From positions 77,743-139,452 of the forward strand of contig JAEPNO010000010.1 of the NCBI GenBank assembly GCA_017643365.1: a DNA stretch of 61,710 nucleotides, read 5' to 3'. The translations under genes and the position numbers were made by a program. Numbering within the stretch: position 1 is the stretch's first letter; every line of letters begins with the position of its first letter. The notes beneath the pieces are model-generated. The model ran no database searches, was not told the DNA's origin, and saw only the letters and a program-made list of their open reading frames with translations. The DNA is from Balneolaceae bacterium. GTDB lineage: Bacteria > Bacteroidota > Rhodothermia > Balneolales > Balneolaceae. This document shows, piece by piece, positions 1-947 of this stretch.

Positions 1-191
1 AATCTCGCATGCGATCTCATAATGAGTTGGGTACAAAAGGGTGGACGATAAAATACCGCCCGTGGGAAATCGTATTTACGGAATCGTTTGCAAGCAAGTC
101 CGAAGCAATGAAAAGAGAGCGCGAGCTGAAAACCGCCAAAGGTCGAGAGTATGTTTGGGAGCAAGTAACTCTCAAGTATAATTTAATATAG
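1..191 (+). CDS. GIY-YIG nuclease domain protein, 5'-truncated by the window edge (copy A)
   Basis: This is the 3' part of a small GIY-YIG gene. It is identical to positions 414-604 except for one base (T at 32, C at 445), so the missing start lies about 70 bases left of the window. The visible part covers the arginine-bearing helix and the conserved glutamate region (KSEAMKRERELK). The family consists of single-domain nucleases of 80-100 residues related to the UvrC N-terminal domain. The cellular role of the stand-alone proteins is mostly unknown. The reading frame is intact to its TAA stop. Confidence 0.7.
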   Translation, partial: SRMRSHNELGTKGWTIKYRPWEIVFTESFASKSEAMKRERELKTAKGREYVWEQVTLKYNLI

Positions 192-281
192 TCGGGCTCT
201 TATCCGCCGGTTGGCGGACGCAGGTTCCGCAAAATAGATTCCTTAAGAAGAATCCTAACTATCATCCGACCATTGGCGGAC
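1..281 (+). repeat. Tandem GIY-YIG cassette, copy A (partial)
   Basis: Positions 1-281 match 414-694 with a single substitution, a tandem repeat with an offset of 413 bases. The non-coding tail after the stop codon holds a perfect palindrome TCCGCCGGTTGGCGGA (203-218) and a related bulged one, TCCGACCATTGGCGGA (266-281), sharing the 3' half TTGGCGGA. Between them GATTC and GAATC form a weaker hairpin. Identity stops exactly after the second palindrome, which suggests it marks the cassette border. Confidence 0.85.
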
Positions 282-296
282 CGCCACTACATTAAA

Positions 297-330
297 GGCG
301 TCGTTTTCTTCAGAAAGCGACGCCTTTTTT
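297..330 (+). terminator. Rho-independent terminator between cassettes A and B
   Basis: A strong hairpin: GGCGTCG pairs with CGACGCC, and an inner TTTCT pairs with AGAAA across a two-base loop, followed by six T. It ends any transcript entering from the left. The corresponding stretch is missing between copy B and the decayed copy, where the spacing shrinks from 413 to 378 bases. It was therefore either inserted once or deleted once. Confidence 0.8.
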
Positions 331-343
331 ATTTGGGGGAATC

Positions 344-604
344 ATGTTCAAAGTATACGCATTGTACTCACCGGGGTACCATAAAATATATATTGGCTTT
401 AGTTCAGATTTGGAATCTCGCATGCGATCTCATAATGAGTTGGGCACAAAAGGGTGGACGATAAAATACCGCCCGTGGGAAATCGTATTTACGGAATCGT
501 TTGCAAGCAAGTCCGAAGCAATGAAAAGAGAGCGCGAGCTGAAAACCGCCAAAGGTCGAGAGTATGTTTGGGAGCAAGTAACTCTCAAGTATAATTTAAT
601 ATAG
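344..604 (+). CDS. Small GIY-YIG nuclease domain protein (copy B, complete)
   Basis: An 86-residue single-domain protein. The N-terminus MFKVYALYSPGYHKIYIG fits the GIY-YIG core (VYALY then IYIG). It is followed by the SSDLESRMRSHN segment with the usual arginine and histidine, then the helix SEAMKRERELK with the metal-binding glutamate. The length matches stand-alone UvrC-N-like family members. The start ATG is preceded by GGGGGAATC, a good ribosome site. The gene sits between a terminator and a palindrome pair, and is flanked by a near-identical copy on the left and a dead copy on the right. It probably cuts or nicks DNA. The target and role are unknown, and mobility is inferred only from the tandem copies. 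Confidence 0.8.
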   Translation: MFKVYALYSPGYHKIYIGFSSDLESRMRSHNELGTKGWTIKYRPWEIVFTESFASKSEAMKRERELKTAKGREYVWEQVTLKYNLI

Positions 605-694
605 TCGGGCTCTTATCCGCCGGTTGGCGGACGCAGGTTCCGCAAAATAGATTCCTTAAGAAGAATCCTAACTATCATCCGACCATTGGCGGAC
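414..694 (+). repeat. Tandem GIY-YIG cassette, copy B (part shared with copy A)
   Basis: Counterpart of 1-281. The palindromes recur at 616-631 and 679-694. With only one difference in 281 bases, coding and non-coding parts alike, the duplication is recent or is kept uniform by gene conversion. Confidence 0.85.
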
Positions 695-721
695 AGCCAG
701 GCCTTTATATTTGGTGGAATC

Positions 722-947
722 ATGTTTAAAATAAACGCTCTGTATTAGCCGGTGTACCAAAAAAATTTATAGGCTTTTGTTCCGATCTAGAATCTCGTAA
801 TTGATCTTATAATGAATGGGGTACCAAGCGGAGGATGATAAAATACCGTCTTGTGAAATTGTATTTACGGAATCGTTTGTAACAAAAACTGAGGCTATAA
901 CACAATAGCGTGAACAGAAATAGGCAAGCAAATGGTAAATAGAATGA
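722..947 (+). pseudogene. Decayed GIY-YIG gene (copy C)
   Basis: The sequence aligns with copy B from its start codon (ATGTTTAAAATAAACGCTC against ATGTTCAAAGTATACGC) through the C-terminal helix, and the preceding bases TATTTGGTGGAATC also match. It has an early TAG stop at the eighth codon, a one-base deletion in the stretch matching YHKIYIG, and several later stops. Clear stretches of identity remain, such as TTTACGGAATCGTTTG. It is an old member of the same tandem family. It shows that the array has expanded more than once. Confidence 0.85.

Follow-up and report, generated by a model that had tools for sequence, protein, structure and literature searches.

Tandem GIY-YIG nuclease genes with palindrome-marked tRNA remnants in a Balneolaceae bacterium: an apparently undescribed family of cassettes beside specific tRNA genes

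Introduction

Integrative elements that use tRNA genes, such as tyrosine-recombinase islands and tycheposons, preserve a whole tRNA and leave part of a second copy at their other end. A closer parallel to the locus described here is offered by a nuclease gene of phages. SegB, a phage endonuclease of the GIY-YIG type, cuts within tRNA genes and is enriched near tRNAs, and its nuclease activity is needed for the tandem amplification of tRNA-Tyr together with segB (PMC13096335). Its motif is RAWTSGAAC, it shows no tRNA isotype preference, and palindromes are unmentioned in the account of that system (PMC13096335). GIY-YIG domains also stand alone in proteins of the Slx1/UPF0213 type (PMC1564403).

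In this study, we analyzed a stretch of 61,710 nucleotides (“the window”) from a Balneolaceae bacterium (contig JAEPNO010000010.1; G000:C1:77743-139452), which opens on tandem copies of a small GIY-YIG gene. An initial annotation, made from the sequence alone, had described a nuclease-plus-palindrome unit with palindromic borders, comparable to REP elements and their RAYT enzymes. We report that this unit is built on a tRNA gene, which the annotation had missed, and that it belongs to a family of tiny, selfish-looking cassettes that lie beside specific tRNA genes in Bacteroidota and neighbours. The family is apparently undescribed; our literature search, whose coverage stopped short of subscription papers and preprints, returned no account of a chromosomal tRNA-linked GIY-YIG family.

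Results

A tandem array at the start of the window

The window opens in the middle of the array. The features, in window coordinates, are:

1..191, + strand: GIY-YIG copy A, 3' part (62 residues of the 86-aa protein), with its 5' part across the upstream N gap
191..288, + strand: psi-tRNA-Met A, a truncated initiator-type tRNA-Met, reading GTCGGGCTC-TTA-palindrome-CGCAGGTTC...CGCCACT, with extra insertions in the T arm and acceptor part
203..218, no strand: 16-nt palindrome TCCGCCGGTTGGCGGA, which replaces the 3' anticodon stem of psi-tRNA A
265..280, no strand: second, imperfect palindrome TCCGACCATTGGCGGA, in the acceptor part of psi-tRNA A
294..331 (arms 294-309 and 312-327), + strand: terminator-like hairpin and T run, a copy of the terminator 3' of the intact upstream tRNA-Met
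344..604, + strand: GIY-YIG nuclease gene copy B, intact, 86 aa
604..702, + strand: psi-tRNA-Met B, equal to psi-tRNA A up to 281 (A) versus 694 (B)
616..631, no strand: 16-nt palindrome TCCGCCGGTTGGCGGA in psi-tRNA B
678..693, no strand: second palindrome TCCGACCATTGGCGGA in psi-tRNA B
722..932, + strand: decayed GIY-YIG copy C, with an in-frame stop at codon 9 and further stops

The coding part of copy A (3-191) is truncated by the window edge. Stretches 1-286 and 414-699 are spaced by 413 bp and have mismatches at position 32 and next at 282, which bears out the earlier count of one difference in 281 bases; as had also been seen, the identity ends at a palindrome, stopping one base past the second one. 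Copy B is indeed an intact gene for an 86-residue GIY-YIG protein, and the third copy (~722-932; 74–80% identical and stop-interrupted) had rightly been called wrecked. A fourth, partial nuclease copy lies outside the window, upstream of a scaffold gap. This gap (~99 N at G000:C1:77644-77742) abuts the window start and was probably caused by the near-identical units; the copy number of the array is a minimum. The array units encode the GIY-YIG nuclease only and no other gene.

An adjacent initiator tRNA gene and its palindrome-marked remnants

An intact tRNA-Met(CAT) gene is located at G000:C1:77367-77440, ~300 bp upstream of the window and beyond the assembly gap, and the element starts there. 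We take this tRNA to be of the initiator type, as its first base pair is unpaired and its anticodon stem has three G-C pairs. It is the single tRNA-Met(CAT) gene of that type here, and its terminator hairpin recurs ahead of every intact nuclease gene in the array. On the 3' side, each nuclease gene is followed by GTCGGGCTCTTA-TCCGCCGGTTGGCGGA-CGCAGGTTC..., which is the tRNA from the anticodon arm onward with a palindrome for the 3' anticodon stem. The palindrome occupies the exact place of that stem within the truncated copy (GGGCTCATA / TCCGCCnnnnGGCGGA / CGCAGGTTC, slashes marking the junctions). In a sister species (G002), the remnant is almost undamaged except for the palindrome. At the named loci the junction consensus was GGGCTCATA / TCCGCC-N(2-4)-GGCGGA / CGCAGGTTCGA (120 hits), with the same ten bases replaced in many host classes. 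This constant junction lies inside the tRNA remnant, so the palindromes mark the interior of truncated copies of the neighbouring tRNA and are not the borders of a free unit for which they had been taken.

When the locus was compared with Rfam, the intact tRNA alone was significant, and the remnants and palindromes matched no family. A group I intron was considered and rejected: no intron family was among the Rfam matches of the locus, and the adjacent tRNA is uninterrupted. In Niastella caeni (L236), seven Met-type palindrome junctions were observed within 3.2 kb of sequence that is interrupted by a run of N.

Linkage to tRNA genes across the phylum

A profile made from 18 relatives was searched against 394 genomes of the phylum, and ~60 further regions were retrieved. 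Of the 394 genomes, 217 had matches at E ≤ 1e-12, a part of which are weaker GIY-YIG genes. Tandem arrays were common and reached five copies in single-contig genomes (G315 and G258), in keeping with the original description of nuclease and palindrome as a self-contained, recurring unit that is copied in tandem.

For 110 loci that scored at least 75 bits against the protein profile, a tRNA was found on the same strand within 300 bp in 92 (76 before the gene and 16 after it), and on the opposite strand within 300 bp in none. By our own estimate, based on ~45 tRNA genes per 3.5 Mb, such proximity would arise by chance in ~0.4% of cases. Several of the remaining loci were at contig ends or had tRNA remnants only. 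The weaker-scoring GIY-YIG genes were without a tRNA link, decayed copies excepted. In 86 of 94 loci, the tRNA was accompanied by a second, truncated copy of itself, versus 0.4% in a mismatched-isotype control, which is valid for this 94-locus set and uninformative for the Met set described below, nearly all loci there being Met. The usual geometry was either full tRNA, gene and 3' remnant, or 5' remnant, gene and full tRNA. From this arrangement, it looks as if the gene had been inserted into a tRNA gene, one half of which was then completed. A terminator-like hairpin separates the tRNA and the gene in 43 of 60 loci. Hairpins were also found in 64 of 86 remnants versus 6% of shuffled remnants, but 27 of 94 intact tRNAs have one as well, which weakens this test.

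The palindrome of one Asp array contains the stop codon of the nuclease gene. At an Asn locus (L028, G015:C4, 1700-2760), the interval between tRNA-Asn and a single nuclease gene contains a tandem series of eight ~137-bp units, each made up of a tRNA-Asn remnant with its palindrome and a terminator.

Isotype specificity of nuclease and palindrome

The family uses ~13 tRNA isotypes, and the nuclease phylogeny follows the tRNA isotype across host families. The protein tree required 22 isotype changes compared to a mean of 63.8 after shuffling, and none of 200 shuffles gave as low a number. Palindrome type also tracks isotype (excess mutual information 1.00; 0/2000 shuffles as high); its link to host family was not significant (p = 0.13).

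A second set of 74 loci was chosen solely by Met-type protein similarity, via a Met-only alignment. Of these, 59 were within 300 bp of a tRNA, and this was Met(CAT) for all except two (57/59). The Met-type loci span at least six classes (Chitinophagia, Cytophagia, Bacteroidia, Sphingobacteriia, Balneolia, Ignavibacteria and others), and TCCGCC..GGCGGA was present in 47 of the 56 remnants of the set. The Met-type tree, which is weakly resolved, has 22 host-class changes, the minimum being 7, and the proteins partly cluster by host class.

Presence, absence and selection

Comparison of filled and empty sites, a check that the initial annotation had suggested, revealed that the Ser(gga) and Met loci are occupied in some relatives and empty in others. 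At the Ser(gga) locus, G002 has a cassette and the window's genome (G000) has none, and the tRNA is identical. Several relatives have an empty Met locus, and in one of them (G007) the tRNA is identical to that of the filled G000. That the presence of a cassette alters the tRNA sequence is thus excluded for Met and Ser. At the Gly locus, G000 has the cassette and G002 has a remnant only, which bears a different palindrome, TCACGCAGTGGCGTGA. The initiator anticodon arm was intact in 17 of 17 genomes tested, carriers and non-carriers included. Median dN/dS was 0.09, indicating purifying selection, and was low between tandem copies too. The genes were also considered as phage or plasmid cargo, which was rejected as no near copy turned up among phage, plasmid or viral-contig sequences.

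Other sites in the window's genome had remnants alone. At one locus (L057, G000:C44, ~1551-1750), tRNA-Asn has two palindrome-marked tRNA-Asn remnants before it, and the stretch that was read contains no nuclease gene; the matching locus of G002 is occupied by a nuclease cassette. Another locus (L060, G000:C48, ~1430-1530) has a degenerate, tRNA-like sequence that includes a palindrome; no nuclease gene was noticed close by, and the sequence is possibly a relic.

The genome-wide search for the palindrome that the annotation had called for returned ~46 forward and 43 reverse matches at ≤1 mismatch, versus 0 and 1 in the control. In this genome, the 16-nt palindrome also forms the loop in two or more intergenic hairpin repeats that are unrelated (for example at L014, L017, L051 and L055), GTCATCCTGA-palindrome-GAAGGATCT and GGGGAGTRCCG-palindrome-TGGCGAGGGG.

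The nuclease protein

The window protein belongs to the GIY-YIG superfamily, as it matches PF01541 (E = 2.9e-15) and has the conserved Tyr, Arg and Glu; in 87 sequences, Y5, Y16, G18, R26, H30 and E63 were invariant or nearly so. Its AlphaFold2 model has a mean pLDDT of 96.9. The protein is the catalytic domain alone, without a DNA-binding tail, and its best sequence and fold matches were Slx1 and UPF0213 (1zg2, 1ywl, 6seh), with I-TevI marginal only. There was no match for the window protein in PHROG and none above cut-off in NCBIfam. PADLOC gave no match either, and the reading of the gene as part of a defence system was dropped.

Discussion

We favor the interpretation that the array is a chromosomal, isotype-specific, homing-type selfish cassette that targets a tRNA gene, and we consider this probable, with some reserve. 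Its basis is the tRNA linkage, the isotype specificity, the constant junction, the tandem arrays, the pattern of presence and absence, and the purifying selection. Such a cassette would comprise a minimal GIY-YIG gene and a truncated copy of one tRNA, with a loop or arm swapped for a 16-nt palindrome, and would adjoin the intact tRNA gene on the same strand, each nuclease lineage being specific to one isotype. The nuclease would recognize its tRNA gene and break the DNA inside it. Repair from a carrier copy would then install the nuclease together with tRNA sequence, with one complete tRNA kept and the rest left as the remnant. In the remnant, the palindrome would supplant the target and act as a scar that is poorly re-cut and poorly recombines back. 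Rare renewed cutting, and recombination between the repeated tRNA parts, may produce the tandem copies, as for SegB in phage T6. The terminator between the tRNA and the nuclease gene probably keeps expression low.

The weak point of the homing interpretation is that carriers keep an intact target, yet classical homing destroys its site, which implies either that recognition needs more than the tRNA or that expression is very low; the role of the palindrome as a cut-resistant scar is thus putative. Also against homing are the lack of a DNA-binding tail and the fact that the nearest kin are Slx1 and UPF0213, and not I-TevI or SegB. The clustering of Met-type proteins by host class argues in the same direction, and long vertical inheritance with loss may be an alternative.

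The initial annotation had raised the possibility that the nuclease acts on the palindromes. In that case, an Slx1-like enzyme would cut the palindrome or hairpin as its own substrate and so drive the spread and tandem copying of tagged remnants, and the dispersed palindromes would be solo ends, as REP is for RAYT. Several observations are consistent with this, as palindrome type goes with nuclease lineage and not with host, palindromes are dispersed in the genome, palindrome-bearing remnants exist without a nuclease gene, and the nearest folds are those of the branched-DNA nuclease Slx1 and of UPF0213. In addition, carrier genomes contain more copies of TCCCGAnnnnTCGGGA (median 5, against 0 in the others; 14 against 0 within family f26, p = 4e-8), although these counts are confounded by phylogeny and the comparison covers some families only. 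We nonetheless think it unlikely that the palindrome is the substrate, as its dispersed copies fill the loops of unrelated hairpin repeats that have no tRNA or nuclease gene, its loop sequences vary, and the Y1 transposase (RAYT-type) genes in the genome could handle palindromes. We are similarly doubtful of a new class of minimal mobile element, in which isotype-specific GIY-YIG nucleases would be seeded on tRNA genes, structure-selective cutting of the 16-nt palindromes (as remodelled tRNA arms) would drive spread and tandem growth, and the dispersed palindromes would be solo relics.

It is quite improbable, in our opinion, that these are ancient host genes that are linked to tRNAs and serve tRNA-gene or recombination biology, the tandem copies being ordinary slippage duplications and the palindromes a product of decay. 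Strong purifying selection and partial clustering by host class would suit a host gene, and tandem duplication needs no special enzyme. However, presence is patchy within a genus with the tRNA unchanged, ~13 isotypes are used, and decay would not yield one and the same replacement at the junction in unrelated hosts. An artefact of assembly or segmental duplication, which the annotation had named as a way for its proposal to fail and which the ~99 N scaffold gap beside the array might suggest, is hardly credible, since the same architecture occurs in named isolates, one complete chromosome record and single-contig genomes, whose arrays of up to five copies rule out misassembly as the sole cause.

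Matches to the family are present in roughly half of the genomes sampled from the phylum. If the homing interpretation is correct, the family would amount to a large natural collection of small nucleases, each of which apparently belongs to one tRNA gene, the single-copy initiator tRNA included, and homing at tRNA genes would reach beyond phages to bacterial chromosomes. The family also suggests an origin, open to testing, for the tRNA remnants that bear palindromes and, possibly, for part of the dispersed palindromes of Bacteroidota.

Comparison with known systems

UPF0213 and the prokaryotic Slx1-like proteins have the same single-domain fold as the window protein; the tRNA linkage, isotype-specific lineages and tandem arrays seen here were not found described for them in PMC1564403. 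With SegB and the other free-standing GIY-YIG homing endonucleases of T-even phages, the cassettes share a small nuclease gene beside tRNA genes and the tandem amplification of nuclease and tRNA. The SegB motif reads GTTCSAWTY on the other strand, which is T-loop-like, and the T-loop is interrupted in many of the Ser, Gly and Asp remnants. SegB is phage-borne, whereas the present genes are chromosomal, isotype-specific and reduced to the catalytic domain, and, unlike segB, they are nearly always paired with a truncated tRNA remnant that is mostly palindrome-tagged. Membership of the SegB family was rejected on the lack of a PHROG match and on the nearest PDB sequences, which are UPF0213 and Slx1. 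In its mode of action, SegB is nevertheless the nearest analogue of the proposed homing cassettes.

The comparison with REP/RAYT systems holds for the palindromic character: there too, short palindromes are dispersed in one genome and tied to a dedicated enzyme, and dispersed intergenic palindromes were found in the window's genome. It does not hold for the enzyme, which is GIY-YIG here and a Y1 transposase there, or for the position, the element being anchored to tRNA genes with its palindrome in a tRNA remnant beside the intact tRNA. Membership was rejected as the unit encodes the GIY-YIG protein only, the Y1_Tnp genes being elsewhere in the genome. Compared to tRNA-integrating islands, the cassettes are units of only ~300–450 bp, with a palindrome-altered remnant and with both 5' and 3' remnants; they contain no site-specific recombinase gene, which excludes them from that group. 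The SegB, RAYT and tRNA-island families each fail a defining test, and the cassettes may best be placed as a free-standing, tRNA-targeting GIY-YIG selfish gene.
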